DNA from: a virus
Strand: one strand, 5' to 3'
DNA: 21,233 nucleotides
IMG/VR virus record: IMGVR_UViG_3300044681_000521
Location: 1-21,233 of that record
Shown: positions 4,708 to 16,678 of the stretch, one piece after another
How the letters are laid out: each line of letters opens with the position of its first letter
How positions within the stretch are numbered: the stretch's first letter is position 1
The notes under the pieces: model-generated
What the model was told of the DNA's origin: nothing
Database searches by the model: none
What the model saw: only the letters and a program-made list of their open reading frames with translations
Program-made: the position numbers and the translations under genes

Positions 4708-5696
4708 TAGGCTTTCTGAGTCCACACTTGTTGTGGAAGCAGATTCATTGGGAAATCGGTAAGTCGATCCTTGCGCAATTTCACATTATAGCGGCTAACA
4801 ATAAGGTAAGGCAATGATGTGAAAGTAACTGTTTGACCACTACTAATCATTGCTTGAGACTGAGCAATAACCAATGATGGATTACCCATCTTAGCCAATG
4901 TATCAGTCAAACGCTCTTGATTTACTTTCTTGCCATATCGATTATAAATACAACCGACAGCCGAAATCATTTGATCGCGGAACATTTCCTTATTATTCGG
5001 ATACGCTTTCTTTAGCGTTTCCAATGTCTTGAGTAGGACATTAGCGCCACCATTTGTGTAAACTCTACGCAAAGTAGCAACTGCTCTAATTTTATTAGGT
5101 CCTGGCGTAAAATCAACCATTGCCCCAACTTTTTCTACAACACTATTGATACCAATAGAAATCTCATCACCAGAAATAATACCGGCTTTAAAGATTTGCG
5201 CAGGTGTTGGCTTTGTATGTTCTTGATTTGTTAGAGCAAAGATATGCGCTTCATCTTCAAGCGAAAGACCAAAGTAAACCAATGCGTTTACATTTGTATT
5301 TTTCATACCCTTTTCAATCAATGCGTGATAACGATGACTACCATCAATAATTGCCAAACTATTATCATCACGCATTGAGCAGGTAATAACGCCAAGCAAA
5401 TCGGGGTCAAAGTTTTTAACAATTCTGTTAATCTTTTTCTTGAGCGGAACACGCTGATAACTGTAATCAACAAACATATCTGAAACCTTAATTAGTGACG
5501 ACATCTTTGAGATATGTCCAACATCAAAGTTAGCACCGGGCGCTTCATTTTTTGTAGCAAAAGGCGCAGTAATAACTTTTTTAACTTCAGATACTTTTAC
5601 AGTATCAGAGTCAGCAGTTTTCTTAACCTTTTTAGTGGTTTTCATTTTCTTACCTCCATTTTGAATTGACTTTGTGGATTGATTGCTTTTTTTCAT
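4707..5696 (-). CDS. ParB/Srx-like (ParB N-terminal-type) phage protein, 329 aa
   Basis: The N-terminal 45 residues are Lys/Ser/Thr-rich and probably disordered. A ParB-like fold follows: VDYSYQRVPLKKKINRIVKNF (residues 76-96), then FDPDLLGVI, then AIIDGSHRYHALIEKG (115-130), which corresponds to the DGxHR signature of ParB/sulfiredoxin-like domains, with H121 and R122 the key positions. The C-terminal 180 residues are helical. Phages of actinobacteria often carry stand-alone proteins of this type; NTP hydrolysis, nuclease or DNA-binding activity has been reported for relatives, but the role here is unknown. There is no ParA in the window. Two in-frame starts each have a Shine-Dalgarno: 5696 (AGGAG, 5 nt) and 5645 (GGAGGT, 6 nt, the better site), so a 312-aa form is equally possible. 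Confidence 0.75.
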   Translation of the reverse strand: MKKSNQSTKSIQNGGKKMKTTKKVKKTADSDTVKVSEVKKVITAPFATKNEAPGANFDVGHISKMSSLIKVSDMFVDYSYQRVPLKKKINRIVKNFDPDLLGVITCSMRDDNSLAIIDGSHRYHALIEKGMKNTNVNALVYFGLSLEDEAHIFALTNQEHTKPTPAQIFKAGIISGDEISIGINSVVEKVGAMVDFTPGPNKIRAVATLRRVYTNGGANVLLKTLETLKKAYPNNKEMFRDQMISAVGCIYNRYGKKVNQERLTDTLAKMGNPSLVIAQSQAMISSGQTVTFTSLPYLIVSRYNVKLRKDRLTDFPMNLLPQQVWTQKA

Positions 5697-5704
5697 TTTA
5701 TCTC

Positions 5705-5875
5705 CTATACGGTTGATAATTGTTCTACTTCGGTATAAACAGTAACTAGATTTCCAAACATTTTTTGATTGTTTTCTCTCAAAGCCATCATTTCGGCAAT
5801 TTGATTTGCTTCATCAAGACTTTGAGCATCAATATATGTCTCTTTAACTAGTCTGAGACAGTACTTGGTTTCCAT
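5705..5875 (-). CDS. Hypothetical small protein, 56 aa
   Basis: ATG at 5875, TAG at 5705-5707; this fills the gap between the WhiB and ParB-like genes. The product reads as strand (KYCLRLVKETYID), helix (LDEANQIAEMMALRENNQKM), strand (GNLVTVYTEVEQL), a small alpha/beta unit. Its strand-then-helix start resembles that of the 1072-1431 product, though the similarity is only in pattern. It overlaps the WhiB gene by 32 bp; GGTGA about 8 nt upstream is a weak Shine-Dalgarno. The stop is 8 bp before the next ATG. Confidence 0.55.
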   Translation of the reverse strand: METKYCLRLVKETYIDAQSLDEANQIAEMMALRENNQKMFGNLVTVYTEVEQLSTV

Positions 5876-6173
5876 ATTTGATCACCAAACTTTTGGCTTC
5901 CTCCTTTGTTAGAACGGTTACACTTCTTACAAGTTTATTCCTTTCTCTTGTTGTAAATCCTCCCCATATGCCAAATCTTTCCTTATTCCGCACAGCGAAT
6001 TCTAAACATTTATCAGCAACAGTACATTTTCTACAAGCTTCTTTTGCCATTTGTATCTGTTCTTTATCTTCAGAAAACCAATCAATAGATTTAGTTTTAC
6101 TGCACATAGAATCTTGTCTCCAAGATTCACTCATATTGATAAACATTTCCTGATAATCAGTCACTATCTTCAT
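5844..6173 (-). CDS. whiB: WhiB-family Fe-S transcriptional regulator, about 109 aa
   Basis: The four WhiB cysteines are present: C24 in SMCSK, then CRKCTVADKC (C47, C50, C56), giving the C-x22-C-x2-C-x5-C spacing that ligates a 4Fe-4S cluster. The family turn GIWGG (68-72) is followed by a basic TTRERNKLVR segment for DNA contact. The W18-R19 before the first cysteine is also typical. WhiB proteins are restricted to Actinobacteria and their phages and bind the primary sigma factor, so this gene is the best host indicator in the window. The start is uncertain: ATGs at 6179, 6173, 6146 and 6134 all leave the whole domain intact and none has an ideal Shine-Dalgarno. The choice of 6173 gives a 17-bp overlap with the upstream gene. 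Confidence 0.85.
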   Translation of the reverse strand: MKIVTDYQEMFINMSESWRQDSMCSKTKSIDWFSEDKEQIQMAKEACRKCTVADKCLEFAVRNKERFGIWGGFTTRERNKLVRSVTVLTKEEAKSLVIKYGNQVLSQTS

Positions 6174-6558
6174 CTCCATTTTCTTGTTGATCTTCATAAT
6201 ATGGCAGCATTTGAGATTCAATTTCAAACATTGGCAACACTTCTGTTTCCAAATGTCTAAAATATTCCTCTTTGTCTTCATTGACCATACCACCTAGTAT
6301 GGTTTGAATATGATACATAAGAGCAATACCAACACCATAAACCTTTTCATCATTTAGATTTTCTTCATCTTCATGCATTAGGTTTATCACATTCATCATT
6401 GCTACCATTTTACTATCGGAAGATTCATAATCAGTTTCCTTTAGATATTCACTTGTTTGTCTCAATATTAAAGCATAATCACTAGCATCAACAACACCAT
6501 CTGGTACTGTATCTTCATTTATCTTATCAATATTATCAAAATCATCTTTGTTAAACAT
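6157..6558 (-). CDS. Hypothetical acidic protein, 133 aa
   Basis: Very acidic, with Asp/Glu clusters at both ends and a more hydrophobic middle (VYGVGIALMYHIQTILGGMV, about residues 73-92). No family is recognised. The acidity and small size would suit a DNA-mimic or host-protein inhibitor, but nothing specific supports that. AAGGATGAG precedes the ATG at 6558. Confidence 0.65.
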   Translation of the reverse strand: MFNKDDFDNIDKINEDTVPDGVVDASDYALILRQTSEYLKETDYESSDSKMVAMMNVINLMHEDEENLNDEKVYGVGIALMYHIQTILGGMVNEDKEEYFRHLETEVLPMFEIESQMLPYYEDQQENGDEDSD

Positions 6559-6574
6559 CTCATCCTTTTTTCTG

Positions 6575-7072
6575 TTAGTACCAAATGGCTGAACCGTCTG
6601 CGTATTCTGCTACAAAATCTAACCACCAAGAAGCATAAACCCAATCTTTAATTAAATTTTCTGCTTCATCTGGACTGTTTACATAAGCTCTATTCGCAAA
6701 CTCCTCAGTATGATTTTTCATAAACTGCGACATATCTTTGCAGTATTCTATAGATAATCCTTCTTCTCCGTCATCACCTCCATTTCCATAAAATGAGTAT
6801 TGCGTATTTGCATACGCATCTAAATCTCCATTTTCAAGCAATGATAAAAGCATATTGCCATATTTTCCGCGATACCAACAAGGAACTCCAAACATACCGT
6901 AAGTAGGTTCAGCACCTGATTCCTTTAGTAAAACTGAAGATTCAGCTTCTCGCTTATACGGACATTGATTAGCTTTTATTGTTGCATCACAATCAATTCG
7001 GCCATCATTAGCCATAATGCCGGTATTTTCCTTTTCGCAAGGATAAGAGCGTGGAATATTGTCAAGTCCCAT
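6575..7072 (-). CDS. Conserved-looking phage protein beginning MGLDNIP, 165 aa
   Basis: Start set at the ATG at 7072, just after the stop of the upstream gene (TAATATG), with AGG 7 nt before it; an in-frame ATG 24 nt further upstream would overlap that gene. The product starts MGLDNIPRSYPC and holds several cysteines (SYPCEKE, RIDCDATIKANQCPYKR, GVPCWYRGKYG, EYCKDM) that could bind a metal. The C-terminal third is rich in Trp and Tyr (DWVYASWWLDFVAEYADGSA). I have the impression of similar MGLDNIP-type proteins in other phages but cannot name a function. Confidence 0.7.
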   Translation of the reverse strand: MGLDNIPRSYPCEKENTGIMANDGRIDCDATIKANQCPYKREAESSVLLKESGAEPTYGMFGVPCWYRGKYGNMLLSLLENGDLDAYANTQYSFYGNGGDDGEEGLSIEYCKDMSQFMKNHTEEFANRAYVNSPDEAENLIKDWVYASWWLDFVAEYADGSAIWY

Positions 7073-7073
7073 A

Positions 7074-7679
7074 TTAATACCTATCCAATGCGTCACTCAT
7101 TGATGTTGGAAATTCATTTAGAGTTTCACAACCACTTTCTACTAATGAACCATCTTTGATAAAGAAAAATCCATGAAAACCCATTCCAGGCTCTTCATAA
7201 TAAAGATGAAATGTGAGATTTTTATAATCTTTAACTGCTAGATTTTTCATAAGAAAATCATCACCTGGAGACCAAGCAGTGCTATAGTTAATTTGCATTT
7301 CATATTCACCACTATCAATTTTATAAATAGGATCAAATGAAACATCATAACAACCCCATTTAGTACCCCAAACATTATTTGCCCAGTCGTACCAATTGTC
7401 AGCACCATATTTATCAATCAACGCCTGATCTTTTTCAGCACCAAAAGCTTTGTCTTCACGCAAATCTTCTGGCATTGGCGTTAGTTTTCTAAACAAACAA
7501 AAGTTTTCAAAGACATATTTTGAATCATCATTGTATCCTCCTTGAATAATTGCATATTTAATTTGGTTTTCACTCAATGGTTCTTCACCGTGTTTTGGAT
7601 TTACACAAGATACGATGAAATTAATTACATCGTCTTTACTGCCTCTTACAGTAAATTGATTTAGGCAATGGTTAGGCAT
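7074..7679 (-). CDS. Api92-like (DUF1281-type, ferredoxin-like domain) protein, 201 aa
   Basis: The start MPNHCLNQFTVRG (1-13), the F-x-LTPMPEDL segment (63-73) and NNVWGTKWGCYD (101-112), followed by a Tyr-x-Thr-x-Trp-Ser-Pro motif (132-138), follow the pattern of the Api92-like/DUF1281 family, found mainly in phages, plasmids and prophages. These are small ferredoxin-like-fold proteins of unknown role. AAAGGAG lies 7 nt before the ATG at 7679. It overlaps the upstream KTSC-like gene by 8 bp. The assignment is from memory of the family pattern. Confidence 0.75.
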   Translation of the reverse strand: MPNHCLNQFTVRGSKDDVINFIVSCVNPKHGEEPLSENQIKYAIIQGGYNDDSKYVFENFCLFRKLTPMPEDLREDKAFGAEKDQALIDKYGADNWYDWANNVWGTKWGCYDVSFDPIYKIDSGEYEMQINYSTAWSPGDDFLMKNLAVKDYKNLTFHLYYEEPGMGFHGFFFIKDGSLVESGCETLNEFPTSMSDALDRY

Positions 7680-8734: not shown

Positions 8735-9214
8735 TTACACCCAATTCAATCCAGTAAGCAATTCGTCAAATGCTTCACGAAGTGCTCCTTGACCTTTGTT
8801 GTAATCATATACTTGTTCTTCATCTTCACCATCAAATGATATGACGCTTGATACCTGATTTACTGTGTAACCCATAATAGAAACCAAAACACGCTTTCTT
8901 TGTGGATGTTGAGATGGAGCAATTTCGTCACCTTCATCATTATTGACAGGCGCAGCCCAACCACCAGTCGAAACACTAATCAAATCGTATTGACCAAGTT
9001 TTGACATCATGATTTCATTTGCTTGGGTTTTTGAAAGCAGTTCATAAATATCTGAATTCTCTCTAATAATATCACAAGTAATTTGTCCATTTTCATTCAG
9101 CTTAACTCCAAGGAGTTGTGCTTTGTTTTTGTTACCGCGTAGTGGTACGCTATCATTGAACACTTTAAAAGAAATATCTTTGAAAGTATCTTGATCAATT
9201 GTTTTCTTTGTCAT
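8735..9214 (-). CDS. Hypothetical protein, 159 aa
   Basis: Unrecognised alpha/beta protein. Notable segments are a basic NKNKAQLLGVKLNENG strand region near residue 30 and an SVSTGGWAAPVNNDEGDEIA loop near residue 80, then two hydrophobic strands (VLVSIMGYTV, VSSVISFDG). AAAGGAAAA precedes the ATG at 9214. It sits 13 bp after its upstream neighbour in the same operon. Confidence 0.7.
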   Translation of the reverse strand: MTKKTIDQDTFKDISFKVFNDSVPLRGNKNKAQLLGVKLNENGQITCDIIRENSDIYELLSKTQANEIMMSKLGQYDLISVSTGGWAAPVNNDEGDEIAPSQHPQRKRVLVSIMGYTVNQVSSVISFDGEDEEQVYDYNKGQGALREAFDELLTGLNWV

Positions 9215-9227
9215 GTTTTTTCCTTTG

Positions 9228-9560
9228 TTATTCTATGCCTTTTGGCAATAGATCTAGTTGTTTTTTTGCTTCATCATCCCAATATTCCGGGAGATTTCTT
9301 TCAATTTCATAAATCACATCATAATCTGTTTCATCATCAAAATTGATTACAACTTCTCCATAAGTTCCAAAATCGTGAGGAAACCATTTCTTGCTAAAAT
9401 AAATGGATCGATTATCTTTAATCAATTCTCCAAACATACGGTTAAGTTGATTAATGTAGGCATCCATTTCATTATTTGCTCTTTGACGAAAACCCTCATC
9501 TCCAACTTGAGCACAATTTTCACTACAAGGTGAAGGTCCAATTTCCATATAATCTTTCAT
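9228..9560 (-). CDS. Conserved-looking phage protein with MEIGPSPC start, 110 aa
   Basis: The N-terminus MEIGPSPCSENCAQVG and the central FPHDFGTYGEVVINFDDE resemble a small protein seen repeatedly in phage genomes, beginning MEIGPSP-C and containing FPHDFGxYxEV. It has no known function. The C-terminus is acidic, ending with a predicted helix. The ATG at 9560 shares its A with the upstream stop (TAATG). The alternative start at residue 5 (MEIG) is possible and would match the remembered family start better. Confidence 0.7.
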   Translation of the reverse strand: MKDYMEIGPSPCSENCAQVGDEGFRQRANNEMDAYINQLNRMFGELIKDNRSIYFSKKWFPHDFGTYGEVVINFDDETDYDVIYEIERNLPEYWDDEAKKQLDLLPKGIE

Positions 9561-9967: not shown

Positions 9968-10110
9968 TTTTTGCTTATCTCCTCTTGCCACTTTTGGAAA
10001 TCTTCATTCATTTCCAAATCCAATTTCCAATCGTATGGCTCAATCACTTCGTGAATACCCAATACTTCTTTTGTTGTTGCGTATTGCCAATTTCTTCTTT
10101 GATTATTCAT
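9964..10110 (-). CDS. Hypothetical small protein, 48 aa
   Basis: ATG at 10110 with AAAGGT 6 nt upstream; the stop TGA overlaps the next ATG (ATGA). The product (MNNQRRNWQYATTKEVLGIH onwards) is short, charged and helical, with no recognised family. The good Shine-Dalgarno and the precise 4-bp overlap make it credible despite its length. Confidence 0.6.
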   Translation of the reverse strand: MNNQRRNWQYATTKEVLGIHEVIEPYDWKLDLEMNEDFQKWQEEISKK

Positions 10111-10130
10111 TGGTTTACCTTTCTTTGTTG

Positions 10131-10370
10131 TTATTCGGATTTAAATTGCAGCGTTTTTACATAGCGAACTTTTTGCGATTCAATTGCTTGTTTCAAGCAG
10201 TTATCGCAAATCGTTGCTTCAAATTGATCTAAATCAAAATTGCTACCATAATCGCTTTGGACAATGATATCTGAAGCATTTTCCAGATTTGTTGTTTTTT
10301 CCAAATCCGGCCATAGATACTTCACTTCACGGTCACAAATAATGCAATTTGTTGGCTGATTGTTTCTCAT
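10131..10370 (-). CDS. Zinc-ribbon-like small protein, 79 aa
   Basis: Two CxxC knuckles, NCIICDRE (C9, C12) and TICDNCLK (C55, C58), frame a segment holding SDYGSNFDLDQFEA. This is a small zinc-binding fold as found in many phage proteins of unknown role. The ATG at 10370 shares its A with the upstream stop (TAATG). Confidence 0.7.
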   Translation of the reverse strand: MRNNQPTNCIICDREVKYLWPDLEKTTNLENASDIIVQSDYGSNFDLDQFEATICDNCLKQAIESQKVRYVKTLQFKSE

Positions 10371-10606
10371 TACAAATTTTCTCTTTCTTGTAATAGGTCA
10401 CTTCTTGTATTTAGTGTTTGTAGTTGATCTTTCTTAACCCAAAAATAATTGGATTTGTGAAGTAGAGCAACTGTGTATTCTTTAATAAACTCTCGATGCT
10501 TTATATCAAGCCCTTTCAAATGGCAATCGTGAGCCATACAGTAATCGTATCCGGCTTCTTTTCGCTCATCTGAAAACTCTTGTTCACAATAAATACAAAT
10601 AGCCAT
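10370..10606 (-). CDS. Zinc-finger-like small protein, 78 aa
   Basis: MAICIYCEQEF supplies a CxxC (C4, C7) and YDYCMAHDCHLKG supplies C23, H26 and C28, enough ligands for one zinc site. The rest is helical with a KHREFIKEYTVALLHK segment. AAAGGG lies 6 nt before the ATG at 10606. It pairs with the next zinc-ribbon gene in tandem, which suggests related roles. Confidence 0.65.
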   Translation of the reverse strand: MAICIYCEQEFSDERKEAGYDYCMAHDCHLKGLDIKHREFIKEYTVALLHKSNYFWVKKDQLQTLNTRSDLLQERENL

Positions 10607-11462: not shown

Positions 11463-11804
11463 CTATTTATTATCGACCGGAATAAACAAATAATCTTGTT
11501 CAGTCATTCCAATAATGCCATACATACTTGCTTTATAAGGCCATTGAATATGATTAGCATCAATCAATTGCCATTTATCACTATCTTCACAATGCCTATT
11601 GTCATTCCAAAGTGTTTTGAATACTTCAATCATAAGCATTTTGTCACCAACTGACAAATTCATAGATTTAGCCTCTTCACAAAGGCTTTTCTTTATCGCT
11701 TCTCCATTTCGCCATACACCATAATCATCTGAATAATAATATGTATGATCAAAACGAAATACTTTTACAGCAAATTGAATTACCTCATTTGTGTCGTTTC
11801 TCAT
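11463..11804 (-). CDS. Hypothetical protein, 113 aa
   Basis: Unrecognised alpha/beta protein rich in Tyr and Trp (FRFDHTYYYSDDYGVWRNG; LIDANHIQWPYKASMYGIIG). AAAGGAC lies 7 nt before the ATG at 11804, which shares its A with the stop of the upstream gene (TAATG). Confidence 0.65.
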   Translation of the reverse strand: MRNDTNEVIQFAVKVFRFDHTYYYSDDYGVWRNGEAIKKSLCEEAKSMNLSVGDKMLMIEVFKTLWNDNRHCEDSDKWQLIDANHIQWPYKASMYGIIGMTEQDYLFIPVDNK

Positions 11805-12241
11805 TAGTTTGTCCTTTCTTGAATATTTTTGATACTTACTTTGGTACTTTCATTAGATGAGACGTGTTTTGTAATATCAATACGCTCATCTCCAATCATT
11901 GCGTTATTATTGATACTACCAATACCACAAACAGAATACTTATGAACTCGCCTACCTGAAAACACACGCTTAGCGTATTTGTAACCTTCTGGATAGGCAA
12001 CAACAAAAAACTTACCGTCATCTTTGCGACGAAGGAAAATCTTTTGTGAAGCCAATAACTCAGACAAAAACTTGAGCGTAATGGCTTTATTTTTACCACT
12101 CTCAGCAATAGATGTAAGAACGGCATAAACAGTTGCTTTACCATTTTGATCAACCGTGACAAATTTCATTACTTTGCCGTAGTCAGTTTTGTTATCTTTG
12201 ATAGATAGCCCAACAAGAGCGTCAAAAATAGACAAATCCAT
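11804..12241 (-). CDS. Hypothetical protein, 145 aa; first gene of the leftward small-gene operon
   Basis: Unrecognised. Residues 17-60 (NKTDYGKVMKFVTVDQNGKA and ITLKFLSELLASQKIFLRR) are strand-helix-rich, and the C-terminal half is basic (RVFSGRRVHKYSV). It is the promoter-proximal gene of the long block reaching to 581, behind the 417-bp non-coding region. AAAGGGATAGGTT precedes the ATG at 12241. First-gene position suggests an early or strongly expressed product. Confidence 0.65.
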   Translation of the reverse strand: MDLSIFDALVGLSIKDNKTDYGKVMKFVTVDQNGKATVYAVLTSIAESGKNKAITLKFLSELLASQKIFLRRKDDGKFFVVAYPEGYKYAKRVFSGRRVHKYSVCGIGSINNNAMIGDERIDITKHVSSNESTKVSIKNIQERTN

Positions 12242-12516
12242 AACCTATCCCTTTCTCGTATCTGATTTTTTACACAATACAAACGACGACCCAATACCGT
12301 ACACAATGAATAAACTATTGCGTAGATAATGGCTCGTCATTTGTGTAACCATACTATCAGGGGAACGTGTCGAAAAAAACCTCAAAATAAAGATTTCTGA
12401 GATTTCTTTTGGATCGGGGATAAGATCAGACAGATGCTCAATTTATCTATTAATTAAGATCCCGGCATAATCTCCAAGATGAGCTTATATTTAATGATCG
12501 GCTTGTCGATCCAGTC

Positions 12517-12545
12517 AATATAATGAATTAGCTAAAAACTGACAC
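12517..12545 (-). promoter_or_regulatory. Candidate leftward promoter for the small-gene operon
   Basis: On the minus strand GTGTCA (12540-12545, 4 of 6 to TTGACA) and TATATT (12517-12522, 5 of 6 to TATAAT) are spaced exactly 17 bp. The two palindromes at 12554-12579 lie just upstream of the -35. Sequence match only. Confidence 0.4.
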
Positions 12546-12550
12546 GCCCC

Positions 12551-12579
12551 CATGTAATATTACGACCATGTAATATTAC
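12551..12579. repeat. Pair of 10-bp palindromes, 16-bp pitch
   Basis: GTAATATTAC occurs at 12554-12563 and 12570-12579, each a perfect palindrome and each preceded by CAT, with a 16-bp repeat distance. The same motif at the same pitch forms the array at 15927-16018. Candidate operator or protein-binding sites. Confidence 0.75.
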
Positions 12580-12658
12580 CGCTGGCGTTTATCCTAAGTT
12601 TTATCAAAATTTTAGTATATTTTTTTAAGCACCCCAGGGGCTTTATGAAAATCCCAAT

Positions 12659-13471
12659 TTAGGAATTGTTTTTGGAAATTTCCATTAGGTAATCTATCAT
12701 ATTACCTTGATATGTAAAACGACCTAAATGACTAAGCTCAATCGCCGGATCAACCCAAATCTTTCCACCAATCTTTTGCCAATATCGACAAAAACCGTAG
12801 TCTTCACTCAGAAAGCGTTTATTTTCGTCTACATAAGAATTAAAGAGAGCATAAGTGTGTTTCAACTCATCACCTTTTAAACCTCCTGTATCATCTTTAA
12901 ATTGTAATTCTGGGTAAGCCTCAAACATCTTTGTAAACACTTCTCTTTTAATTAACATAAATCCTGTACCTGCATCATGAACAGCAATAGCACCATTATC
13001 AGTTTCAATTTTATCTTGTCCAACAGTTACCGGATTGACAACAAATCGTGTAGCTTTTGCCGCTAATTTATCTGGCTCAACACCTTCCTGAGCAAGTTTG
13101 TGAACTTTTTTCCAATTAATATCTTTGATCGGATAAGAACCTGTAATAATATCCTTATCGTGCCAGAGCATCTTCAATATATCATTATGGTTGAACTTTA
13201 AATCAACATCAATAAATAGTAAATGCGTGAACTGTTCGGCGGCCATAAACTTAGCAACAATGCTGTTTCTAGCCCTGGAAATTAGAGAATCACTAATTGT
13301 GCCAATTCCAAAACGCAATCCAATTTGTTTAAAATACATAGCAGCTTGAACAAGGGACAAAGTAAATGGTTCAGTCAATTGTCGATCATAACAAGGAAGT
13401 GCAATCATTGGAGCCCACTTAGCAATTTGCTCCGGCGATATTTCAATATTTTGTTTTTCAGTAGTTAACAT
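12659..13471 (-). CDS. GT-A fold (family 2-like) glycosyltransferase, 270 aa
   Basis: The product has the layout of a small GT-A enzyme: MIALPCYDRQ near the start, SRARNSIVAKFM (65-76), HLLFIDVDLKF with the metal/nucleotide-sugar DVD motif (88-90), DAGTGFMLIKREVF (167-179) as acceptor region, and SEDYGFCRYWQKIGGKIWVD (222-241) with E223/D224 as candidate catalytic base, followed by SHLG (H248). Phage enzymes of this type glycosylate virion proteins, phage DNA or host surface glycans; the target here is unknown. It has no Shine-Dalgarno and its ATG coincides with the start expected from an extended -10 promoter, so its mRNA may be leaderless. It stands alone, between a terminator and the 417-bp non-coding region. 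Confidence 0.85.
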   Translation of the reverse strand: MLTTEKQNIEISPEQIAKWAPMIALPCYDRQLTEPFTLSLVQAAMYFKQIGLRFGIGTISDSLISRARNSIVAKFMAAEQFTHLLFIDVDLKFNHNDILKMLWHDKDIITGSYPIKDINWKKVHKLAQEGVEPDKLAAKATRFVVNPVTVGQDKIETDNGAIAVHDAGTGFMLIKREVFTKMFEAYPELQFKDDTGGLKGDELKHTYALFNSYVDENKRFLSEDYGFCRYWQKIGGKIWVDPAIELSHLGRFTYQGNMIDYLMEISKNNS

Positions 13472-13477
13472 ATTAAC

Positions 13478-13486
13478 AGTATAGCA
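13478..13486 (-). promoter_or_regulatory. Extended -10 promoter, probable leaderless start
   Basis: On the minus strand TGC-TATACT (extended -10, hexamer at 13478-13483) immediately follows the T-tract of the terminator. The expected start site, about 7 nt downstream, falls at the ATG at 13471. No -35 match at 17 bp, as is common for extended -10 promoters. Confidence 0.5.
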
Positions 13487-13512
13487 AAAAAAAGTGGGGC
13501 TTTCGCCCCACT
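13485..13512 (-). terminator. Intrinsic terminator after the 13545-13880 gene
   Basis: A perfect 8-bp GC-rich stem (13493-13500 with 13505-13512) closes a 4-nt loop, GAAA on the minus strand. It is followed on that strand by an uninterrupted T-tract (13492-13485). This is the clearest terminator in the window and ends the transcript carrying the 111-aa gene. Confidence 0.9.
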
Positions 13513-13544
13513 CAAAAAAACTTATTTATTTTTTTATTGATTTA

Positions 13545-13880
13545 TTACTTAGACTTTACGGTAGTCGTATTCTTGTTCTTAACCGAGCTAACTTCATTAG
13601 CCTGAACTGTTGCATTACCACCACGATTAGCCTTGAAGAAAAGTTCCTTTTTAGCCGAGTCATAGCGAATGATAATCTTATATCCAAACTTTTTTGCCTG
13701 CGCACGAATACGCTGTTGCATTGAGTTATATGGATTACCAGGCTCAACAAAAAGGCTAAACTTTTGTCCAGTATTAACCGATTCATGTAGTGCATTGATA
13801 ATTGCCTGCAAATCTTCAGACTGTCTGCCAGCCCTACTAATTTCTGGGAAACTATCTACTTTGTTCATTTTTAGTGCCAT
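13545..13880 (-). CDS. Hypothetical protein, 111 aa
   Basis: Unrecognised. An N-terminal SRAGRQSEDLQAIINALHES helix (15-34) is followed by a strand (QKFSLFVEPG), a helix (MQQRIRAQAKKFGYK) and a strand pair (IIIRYDSAKKELFFKA). The last 25 residues are Asn/Val/Lys-rich and probably disordered. The layout (helix, strand, helix, strand hairpin, basic tail) would suit a small nucleic-acid-binding protein; this is inference. GGAGA lies 7 nt before the ATG at 13880. A strong terminator follows. Confidence 0.7.
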   Translation of the reverse strand: MALKMNKVDSFPEISRAGRQSEDLQAIINALHESVNTGQKFSLFVEPGNPYNSMQQRIRAQAKKFGYKIIIRYDSAKKELFFKANRGGNATVQANEVSSVKNKNTTTVKSK

Positions 13881-14016: not shown

Positions 14017-14181
14017 GATGATTGACTGTTGCGCTGCAAATTCCTTGATCTTTTCCTTCAACTTCTCATTCTCAATTCGCAGTGCAGTAATTTGAAGAAA
14101 AGCTTTCTGTAATTCTCCAGACAAAACCACGGCAATTTCTTCAGCTGTTGCCGTGACACCTTCTAAAGGGTTTCCAGCCAT
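14002..14181 (-). CDS. Small coiled-coil protein, 59 aa
   Basis: ATG at 14181, TAG at 14002-14004; overlaps the end of the terminase large subunit gene by 19 bp. After a Gly/Thr/Ala-rich start, residues about 24-50 (LQKAFLQITALRIENEKLKE) show heptad spacing of Leu/Ile with an internal Asn, a short leucine-zipper-like coiled coil. Small coiled-coil proteins next to terminase genes occur in many phages; the role is unknown. Upstream of its ATG the Shine-Dalgarno is poor (GGCTAATAA), so coupling to terminase translation is likely. Confidence 0.6.
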   Translation of the reverse strand: MAGNPLEGVTATAEEIAVVLSGELQKAFLQITALRIENEKLKEKIKEFAAQQSIINNQA

Positions 14182-15893
14182 TTATTAGCCTCCGATTTCT
14201 TTTCAGAAAATCCTTGTTCAAATTTTCCAGTTCCACCATTATACACTGATACAGTACCAAAATCAGGCATTTCTTCATTTATCTCATACCATTTATCTGG
14301 TTGCAATAATTCAATTTCAATTTCACTACTGACTGAAATATTTTCTACACAGGTAAACACAGCCCCGGCGATAGCATCTGCTAAATCTTTTGAGCCTTTT
14401 GTTGGGTGATCAATTTTATTATTTGAAAACAAACGCAATTTTAAAAGCTCTTCTTCAACCAATAATTCATTCCAATATCCACGCAAACGGCCATCATAAA
14501 TAGCAGATGTTAATGTATCATAATCTGTTTTCTTTACGCTATGAAAATCAGCATTAATTGCAAGAGATCGCAAGCTTTGAATCATCTCAATTGATTGCCA
14601 ACGGTCAAATGTAACTTTAGCAACATCAAATTTTCTACACAGATCAATAATCATTTGTCTGATGCTTGAGAAATTAATTTCTTCATTAATACCGGCCTCC
14701 CAAGAATAAACAAGATCTACATTTATTACCGGAAGCTTTTCAGTGCCATTTAATGTTTTTACTTCTCTTAATCCAGGAGAATGCACTAAGCTTAATGCCG
14801 CGCGGTCTCTTTTAAGCGCTAAGTCAACATGAATAAAACGAACATGCTGATCTGTATTGTTAAACCATTTCTTAAATGTGCCATCTTCATTAATTGGGTC
14901 TTCACCATACATAAAAGCTTTTCTAACCAATTCAGGATCTCTAAAGTAAGCGTCTTCCATATTTGGAGGATTACATTCAAATCGAGCCGCTGCTTCAACC
15001 GGATTTCTAATATATTCAGATTCTAATTGTTCTCTTTTAATTGTTGGGTTTACTTCCCAAGTAGCAGCTTTGATGAACCATGTTTTAGGCTCTTTCTTTT
15101 CCCTAGCTCCATAAAATCTTTGCTCAATAAAATCACCCTTATACCGGGGGAATGAAAGAAGAATAACTTTACCGACTTCTGGGAAGCGCGACATAACAGA
15201 TAGCTTACTCATATTATAAATTGCAGAAGCGGACCCTTTTGATCTCGTTTCGCCTTTTAATTCAGCATCAGTTTTAAAAGCTGCAATTTCATCCAAAACC
15301 ACAGTCAAAACTTCATAACCTTCCCAACCTTCACTTTCAGAGTGACCTGAGAAACATCTTACTGGTCTTGAAAAGAAAAATATTTCTGAAACTCTTGGCT
15401 CAAATCCAACTTCATTGAAATACGGAGATGCCAACAATAAGTTTTTCAAAGGCTCAAAGAATACTCTTTGCGCTTGCTGCGCGTTTACGGCGAGGTTTAG
15501 AAGATCTATATATACTCCGTGTGCTTTACCAAAATAATTTAGCGGGTCCCTTAAACAATGGAGTAGGTACGCTGTATAAGCGATTGATATTCTTGAACAA
15601 TGATCTTTGCCAGATCCTTTGCCTAACATACATATAACTTCGTTATCAGTATATTTCTGATAATACTCTCGCCCTTCTTTGTCACCGTATATAGATATCA
15701 AAGTCTTTTCTTTAAGTATTTGAGTACTATGTTTAACGATCTCTTCTTGTATTGGAGATAATGGTGGTAAGCCTAAATATTTTTTATCCTGCACAAATAC
15801 TTGAATCGGGACAGGAGTTTCAACCAAATCGTCTTGCCTAAGTAGTCGATCAAAGTCATTAAAATCTAAATTTAATCCAATAAAGTCACTCAT
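14163..15893 (-). CDS. terL: Terminase large subunit (ATPase/nuclease), 576 aa
   Basis: The DNA-packaging motor protein. The ATPase domain has Walker A LGKGSGKD (90-97) and Walker B VLTVVLDE (195-202) with the catalytic E202. The coupling-type segment ILLSFPRYKGDF (244-255) follows. The RNase H-like nuclease domain shows HVDLALKRDRAALSL (D357), VTFDRW (D430) and KGSKDLADAIAG (D503, D507). Length is normal for the family. The unusual Gly-rich Walker A (GKGSGKD) is of the type seen in several actinophage terminases. GGGTGAC lies just before the ATG at 15893, and a TATACT -10 at 15908-15913 would give a 5' leader of only about 8 nt. The upstream region carries six palindromic sites, and the terminase small subunit gene lies on the far side of them. 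Confidence 0.95.
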   Translation of the reverse strand: MSDFIGLNLDFNDFDRLLRQDDLVETPVPIQVFVQDKKYLGLPPLSPIQEEIVKHSTQILKEKTLISIYGDKEGREYYQKYTDNEVICMLGKGSGKDHCSRISIAYTAYLLHCLRDPLNYFGKAHGVYIDLLNLAVNAQQAQRVFFEPLKNLLLASPYFNEVGFEPRVSEIFFFSRPVRCFSGHSESEGWEGYEVLTVVLDEIAAFKTDAELKGETRSKGSASAIYNMSKLSVMSRFPEVGKVILLSFPRYKGDFIEQRFYGAREKKEPKTWFIKAATWEVNPTIKREQLESEYIRNPVEAAARFECNPPNMEDAYFRDPELVRKAFMYGEDPINEDGTFKKWFNNTDQHVRFIHVDLALKRDRAALSLVHSPGLREVKTLNGTEKLPVINVDLVYSWEAGINEEINFSSIRQMIIDLCRKFDVAKVTFDRWQSIEMIQSLRSLAINADFHSVKKTDYDTLTSAIYDGRLRGYWNELLVEEELLKLRLFSNNKIDHPTKGSKDLADAIAGAVFTCVENISVSSEIEIELLQPDKWYEINEEMPDFGTVSVYNGGTGKFEQGFSEKKSEANKWLETL

Positions 15894-15907
15894 TTGTCAC
15901 CCTTAAT

Positions 15908-15936
15908 AGTATACACTATCCAATATGAAATCTTAC
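15908..15936 (-). promoter_or_regulatory. Candidate promoter of the terminase large subunit gene
   Basis: On the minus strand TATACT at 15908-15913 is a good -10. At 17 bp spacing the -35 position (15931-15936, GTAAGA) is poor and lies inside the first palindrome of the array, so a protein bound there would act directly on this promoter. Confidence 0.45.
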
Positions 15937-16018
15937 ACGCCGCCAATATTACAGCTCAGTAATCTTACAAGAATTCGTAATCTTACACATCTGTATTCTT
16001 ACGCGGATGTAAGAATAC
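15927..16018. repeat. Array of six palindromic 10-bp sites, 16-bp pitch
   Basis: Sites: GAAATCTTAC 15927-15936, CCAATATTAC 15943-15952, GTAATCTTAC 15959-15968, GTAATCTTAC 15977-15986, GTATTCTTAC 15993-16002, GTAAGAATAC 16009-16018. Starts are 16 bp apart except one 18-bp step. The 6-bp spacers (8 once) are not conserved. A degenerate seventh site (7 of 10 to the reverse complement) falls at 16025-16034, again 16 bp on. The last two form a perfect 10-bp inverted repeat around GCGGAT. It fills the space between the terminase subunit genes. Confidence 0.85.
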
Positions 16019-16055
16019 AATAAGGAAAGATAAGAAAAACATATTGAATTTACAC

Positions 16056-16103
16056 CTTTATGTGAAAGTTTTTCCGTCTCTTTATGTGAGGAAATATCCG
16101 CCT
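16056..16103. repeat. 24-bp imperfect tandem repeat
   Basis: Two copies of CTTTATGTGA-N8-CCG-C/T-CT (16056-16079 and 16080-16103), with a partial third start (CTTTAT) running into the end of the small-subunit gene. It lies between that stop codon and the palindrome array. Confidence 0.55.
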
Positions 16104-16105
16104 CT

Positions 16106-16678
16106 TTATTCAACTCCGTCATTCATGATTTCAAAAGCAATTTCTAATTCTCTCCGAACCTCTTCAGCGATGTTAGGATGTTTAGAAATAACATCTCTTA
16201 AAATTTTTGACAGGATTTGATTGACATTTTCAGCTTTTTGCATTCTTGCAATATATTGACCATCTGTTTGATTTCCACCCATCAGCTTGTGAAGCTGAGC
16301 TTTCTTAGTTGCAACTTCTGCCGCTAATTTAATGGCTTGGATTCTTGCTGGGACCATTCCATGGTCAGTAGCAATATTTATTGTTTCCCAAGCTTCTTTG
16401 CTTAATTGATCAAATTCTTGCAATGCTTTAATTGTATTGAATTGAATCTTTTCCAGAAAATAAGGATCGGATTCAGCTTGCCGGTTAAGGATTTTTCTAT
16501 ACTCAGCAATCATACCCTTTGCCTTGTCTGCGGTTACCGACATCAAGGAACTAACTTCGTGAATTGAGTAGCCCTTTACATGAAGCAATCCGGCCTGTTC
16601 AATATCAGCTAAGTCATCAAGAATAGTCCTTGATTCAGGCTCAATATCTGGTTTTACATATGGTTCAATATCTGACAT
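16106..16678 (-). CDS. terS: Terminase small subunit, 190 aa
   Basis: Assigned from position (directly upstream of the large subunit) and from an N-terminal helix-turn-helix: KGYSIHEVSSLMSVTADKAKGMI (about 35-57) reads as turn, recognition and support helices like the DNA-binding part of small terminases. A long helical segment (LEKIQFNTIKALQEFDQLSK onwards) is suited to oligomerisation, followed by a KKAQLHKLMGG region and a helical C-terminus. It would recognise the packaging start site on the concatemer and hand DNA to the large subunit. The ATG at 16678 overlaps the glycosyltransferase gene by 25 bp. The repeat array just downstream is a candidate binding site. Confidence 0.75.
   Translation of the reverse strand: MSDIEPYVKPDIEPESRTILDDLADIEQAGLLHVKGYSIHEVSSLMSVTADKAKGMIAEYRKILNRQAESDPYFLEKIQFNTIKALQEFDQLSKEAWETINIATDHGMVPARIQAIKLAAEVATKKAQLHKLMGGNQTDGQYIARMQKAENVNQILSKILRDVISKHPNIAEEVRRELEIAFEIMNDGVE

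Follow-up and report, generated by a model that had tools for sequence, protein, structure and literature searches.

MetJ, Arc, and omega repressors are small dimers that bind tandem operators cooperatively; ribbon-helix-helix arrays have a pitch of 7 to 8 bp, shorter than the one described here. In DNA packaging, pac sites of the SPP1 and P22 types adjoin terS, and TerS is a ring-shaped oligomer that repeated sites would suit. In cluster A mycobacteriophages, the sites of the L5 repressor are 13 bp long, asymmetric, and oriented with transcription, and they are bound by a monomer (PMC9283540). The sites we describe here resemble the L5 stoperators, which are likewise numerous copies of one short regulator site, scattered over the genome of an actinobacteriophage within promoter regions and small gaps between genes (PMC9283540). 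Unlike stoperators, they are palindromic rather than asymmetric, with 388 distinct sites giving the logo TGTAANNTTACA, and they form tandem arrays at a 16-bp pitch; large relatives of the phage also gave no tyrosine integrase. Adjacent short sites at a fixed pitch are reminiscent of the MetJ, Arc, and omega repressor arrays and may likewise reflect cooperative oligomer binding, but the candidate protein is modeled as helix-strand-helix-strand-strand, unlike ribbon-helix-helix proteins. Proximity to the terminase genes is shared with pac sites of the SPP1 and P22 types; in contrast to those, the sites are neither kept with the terminase nor confined to its locus.

The window that we analyzed is a viral record of 21,233 nucleotides that encodes a WhiB homologue. 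The operator-like array lies on the upstream side of terL, at 15927..16018 (no strand assigned). Six near-palindromes had been proposed here by the first-pass annotation, and reading positions 15900-16120 together with a mismatch scan confirmed all of them: GAAATCTTAC at 15927, CCAATATTAC at 15943, GTAATCTTAC at both 15959 and 15977, GTATTCTTAC at 15993, and GTAAGAATAC at 16009. The steps are 16, 16, 18, 16, and 16 bp, a regular pitch with a single 18-bp exception, as had been stated. Compared with GTAANNTTAC, the sites score 7, 6, 8, 8, 7, and 7 of 8. When sites scoring 6/8 or better are chained at steps of 15 to 18 bp, the longest chain in the window has six members, and the maximum after dinucleotide shuffling is three (window, 500 shuffles; spacer, 3000 shuffles). 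Other half-sites gave chains of at most four in the spacer for all of the 256 tried. The weak seventh copy suggested at 16025, GAAAGATAAG, matches only 5/8, which is at chance level. GTAATMTTAC with two mismatches is not overrepresented window-wide (51 found versus 48 expected); the array signal is the clustering and the pitch of the sites, not the abundance of the motif. The window has four exact sites, each of which belongs to one of two arrays, the one at terL or a pair at 12554. The spacers had been described as unconserved, and in a clade alignment they carry 0.04 to 0.68 bits, versus about 1.4 to 1.85 bits for the arms; the exception within the arms is the ninth position, at 0.45 bits.

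The array is flanked by the terminase genes. The large subunit, TerL (14163..15893, minus strand), matches phrog_17415 with an E value of 1.8e-12 and is 42% identical to Streptomyces phage terminases, for example those of Karimac and StarPlatinum. The small subunit, TerS (16106..16678, minus strand), is presumed from its position, and its sole match is a PHROG of unknown function. The likeness of TerL and the WhiB homologue suggest an actinobacterial host. Among annotated phage records, we found none that matched 7.9 kb of the window at the DNA level; the close relatives are IMG/VR metagenomic contigs of up to ~105-109 kb. The putative terL promoter has a -10-like TATACT at 15908..15913 (minus strand), which is TATAAT or TACAAT in array-bearing relatives and is missing in those without the array. 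Relatives with a TerL that is at least 91% identical share an ATAGTG-TATAMT-like box 13 to 14 bp ahead of the terL start codon. A -35 element had been placed inside the first site of the array. The position corresponding to a 17-bp spacing, 15931-15936, does lie inside that site; the putative promoter has no recognizable -35 hexamer.

We then aligned the terS-terL spacers of related phages, a comparison that the first-pass annotation had recommended. The clade with a TerL identity of at least 91% keeps 2 to 6 recognizable sites before terL, and 33 of the 38 steps in this clade are 16 bp. Neither the array nor the -10 box was found in relatives with a TerL that is 81-84% identical, whose TerS is 72-77% identical. 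In the relatives compared, the array and the TATAMT box are present together or absent together. In these alignments, the terL array tracks the promoter-like box and not the terminase. This pattern bears on the possibility that packaging starts at the palindromes (pac), with the small terminase as their binder, to which their place between the terminase genes would be well suited. A packaging site is expected to track the terminase and to be kept whenever TerS and TerL are, but the palindromes are absent from relatives that retain both proteins. Furthermore, most of the sites lie ~23 kb from the terminase genes, and in most relatives another tandem repeat fills the terS-proximal part of the spacer. 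We consider it highly improbable that the palindromes serve as a packaging start. In the window, the other repeat is a 24-bp tandem, CTTTATGTGA...CCGTCT twice, at 16056..16103 (no strand assigned), directly after the presumed terS. It has counterparts in most relatives, with a pitch of 24 to 42 bp and a sequence that drifts between clades, often ending in CATAAAGG. This post-terS repeat is a better candidate for the packaging site than the palindromes. The CATAAAGG motif is also found in the site clusters described below, where one genome strand carries nearly all copies.

The sites are abundant elsewhere in the larger relatives. Two ~105-kb genomes, read in pieces, contain 43 and 24 exact copies of GTAANNTTAC, compared with 0 to 6 for 11 permuted palindromes. 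A single 4-6-kb cluster of small genes, located ~23 kb downstream of terL, takes 38 of the 43 copies and 21 of the 24. Among the copies outside the cluster are the counterpart of the 12554 pair, present in both genomes, and the terL spacer sites, present in the first. Counting both strands, we found 24 to 36 site pairs at 16 bp in three of four ~105-kb records, with 0 to 1 in the reversed control; the fourth record has 5 such pairs and is richer in 17-18-bp steps. Ten related records have up to 36 paired sites per genome, and two of the most distant ones have none. In five clusters with 201 exact sites in total, just 5 of the sites fall inside homology-supported genes, though 35-46% of the DNA is coding. 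The logo shows more half-sites one pitch away; site spacing peaks at 16-17, 32-34, and 49 bp, and some clusters use a pitch of 15, 17, or 18 bp. A single genome has the same site at several locations that are promoter-like or intergenic, as in a dispersed operator regulon.

Palindromes that are dense and regularly spaced could also be replication-origin iterons or a set of nucleoid or partition (centromere-like) sites, and the 12554 pair does lie near conserved AT-rich DNA. However, the sites do not form one block but are distributed among numerous intergenic gaps in the cluster, and no initiator was identified. A ParA-type ATPase (PF13614), as expected for a partition centromere, was absent from five large relatives and was found in 14 of 14 controls. 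We regard an origin or partition function as improbable. An actinobacterial phage with a WhiB homologue could likewise exploit sites for a host transcription factor. Triple arrays, however, gave nine matches among 84,980 species, one genome each, and these come from unrelated taxa with only one actinobacterium among them; a host factor is very unlikely to be the binder. Triple-site matches in viral contigs outside the phage family appear to be mostly coding repeats with an 18-bp period.

The clusters have other recurrent elements. CATAAAG is enriched ~17-fold near the palindromes in the L149, L150, L151, and L153 clusters, nearly always on one genome strand whatever the orientation of the genes. 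Intergenic gaps of the clusters contain long hairpins whose bases are GC-rich (GCGGGCGTAA...TTACGCCCGC) and that are built partly of the sites (L150, 13187-13230; L151, 11240-11285; L153, 10885-10925).

The second array of the window was overlooked by the first-pass annotation. It consists of two perfect GTAATATTAC palindromes that start at 12554 and 12570 (12554..12579, no strand assigned; 16-bp pitch), in a 417-bp noncoding region between a glycosyltransferase-like gene and a gene for a 145-aa protein. The pair, or a counterpart with one to three sites, is present in most relatives with a glycosyltransferase-like neighbor that is ~62-95% identical. These include relatives that have no terL array, and the counterpart is missing from the most distant relatives. 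The terL array is much more narrowly conserved than the 12554 pair. Downstream of the pair lies the 145-aa gene, which is of unknown function (11804..12241, minus strand). A promoter-like block, AGGTTTTTTTCGACACGTTCCCCTGATAG, at 12354..12382 (minus strand) is common to the upstream region of a candidate regulator, A1, in a relative, and it may function as a promoter in both places. Searching with its pattern, AGGTT...TTTTT-N-GATAG, we located the block ahead of the 145-aa gene in one relative as well as in the window, and ahead of A1 in a further relative. Between the block and the 145-aa gene is a putative leader-like ORF of 31 codons (12245..12340, minus strand). The sites upstream of A1, like those upstream of the 145-aa gene, are ~150-200 bp before the promoter-like block. 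At these genes, the sites may act from afar or serve a second promoter, and their mode of action need not be equal everywhere. The noncoding gap, 12242-12658, also holds a conserved AT-rich block, AAAATATAYTAAAATTT, and a conserved AAAGAAATCT...GAGGTTTTTTT block. We considered a known RNA element and rejected it, as the only Rfam match was a sub-threshold one to the L20 leader; a search for tRNAs found none. In the clade of L028, L031, and L033, the noncoding gap after the glycosyltransferase-like gene has three sites at a pitch of 14 bp in place of 16 bp.

The first-pass annotation viewed the terL array as an ordered binding platform and left operator and packaging start as competing functions. 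The array and its pitch support a platform, and between the two functions, an operator is favored and a packaging start is disfavored. We favor operators because further promoter-like places in the genome carry the same sites and because the terL array comes and goes with the -10-like box. The array probably serves as operators for a DNA-binding regulator that the phage itself encodes and that most likely represses terL until late in infection. We observed the sites, their pitch, spread, and intergenic location, their clade pattern, and their co-occurrence with a family of small proteins described below (RGRKS); binding, dimer stoichiometry, cooperativity, and the direction and timing of regulation are inferred. 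One dimer would probably bind each 10-12-bp palindrome (TGTAANNTTACA). A 16-bp pitch is ~1.5 helical turns and would put neighboring dimers on roughly opposite faces of the DNA, so that several of them could coat it side by side, perhaps cooperatively. At terL, this coating would overlap the -35 position and the upstream DNA of the presumed promoter, leading to repression, most likely until late infection. The same regulator would act on promoters of the 4-6-kb small-gene cluster and on the noncoding region around 12554. The binder would most likely come from the RGRKS family, as one member or several; these are encoded beside the cluster arrays and would then regulate their own expression.

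A protein bound to the same operators might instead activate terL and the other promoters, the array being upstream of a promoter that lacks a -35 box. Consistent with activation, there is no good -35 hexamer upstream of TATACT, the sites are immediately upstream of the -10 box, and those at A1 and the 145-aa gene are well upstream of the promoter-like block. However, between the last array site and the -10 box there are 6, 10, or 13 bp, depending on the relative, and this varying distance fits repression better than an activator with a fixed geometry. The 6-bp case puts a site within the polymerase footprint, between -10 and -35. Activation appears unlikely to us, and repression by a phage protein remains the preferred reading.

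The candidate for this protein comes from the clusters themselves. Every site cluster encodes, beside the arrays, paralogous proteins of ~95-115 aa; their family has an RGR motif that is invariant and mostly extends to RGRKS. In L149, the members A1, A2, and A3 are encoded at 5588-5908, 6437-6739, and 7348-7632. The family is present in seven of seven cluster-bearing records, with three full-length copies in six of them and two in the seventh, and in none of five site-less relatives, which are partial records. The largest of these, at 83.6 kb, has its terL at such a distance from the contig end that the cluster region would be covered. A coincidence of site and gene patterns could arise from clade structure alone. 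Based on its distribution, the RGRKS family is the best candidate for the binder of the sites. TerS, the 99-aa HTH protein, and WhiB, which had been put forward for binding experiments, all occur in site-less relatives too, and none of them tracks the sites.

The window encodes an apparent distant homologue of the RGRKS family, a 111-aa protein just downstream of terL (13545..13880, minus strand; hhalign probability, 90.8; E = 1.2e-6). With smaller alignments, the hhalign probability is weaker, 24.6. We also considered that the 111-aa protein might be specific to the terL array and rejected this, as its orthologues are found downstream of terL in array-less relatives as well. AlphaFold models of the RGRKS family and of the 111-aa group have a predicted helix-strand-helix-strand-strand fold (pLDDT, 81 and 71). 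Searches for the candidate regulator in Pfam, PHROGs, NCBIfam, PDB sequences, and 50,697 phage records gave nothing convincing. Foldseek and VIA gave only weak matches to R3H, IF3-C, and SpoVS-like folds, which bind nucleic acids, with Z scores of 4.4 to 6.8 for two related models, below the level of trust.

We tentatively propose that RGRKS may be a previously undescribed family, usually with three paralogues per genome and a distant cousin beside terL, that coats the 16-bp-pitch arrays. It could form an autoregulating network of several repressors that times the small-gene cluster and, in one branch, terL as well; a tyrosine integrase was not detected in these phages (five large relatives searched). 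If true, this would provide a readable control system, an operator code, for abundant uncultured actinobacterial phages, along with a candidate regulator family that has no database match. It would also mean that a late gene, terL, was newly wired into an existing regulon through the gain of an operator array.

The same clusters encode a second paralogous family, without an NCBIfam match, of basic proteins of ~160 aa; its members are found at 8761-9240, 10008-10526, and 11212-11703 in L149 and at 13010-13540 and 13949-14428 in L151.
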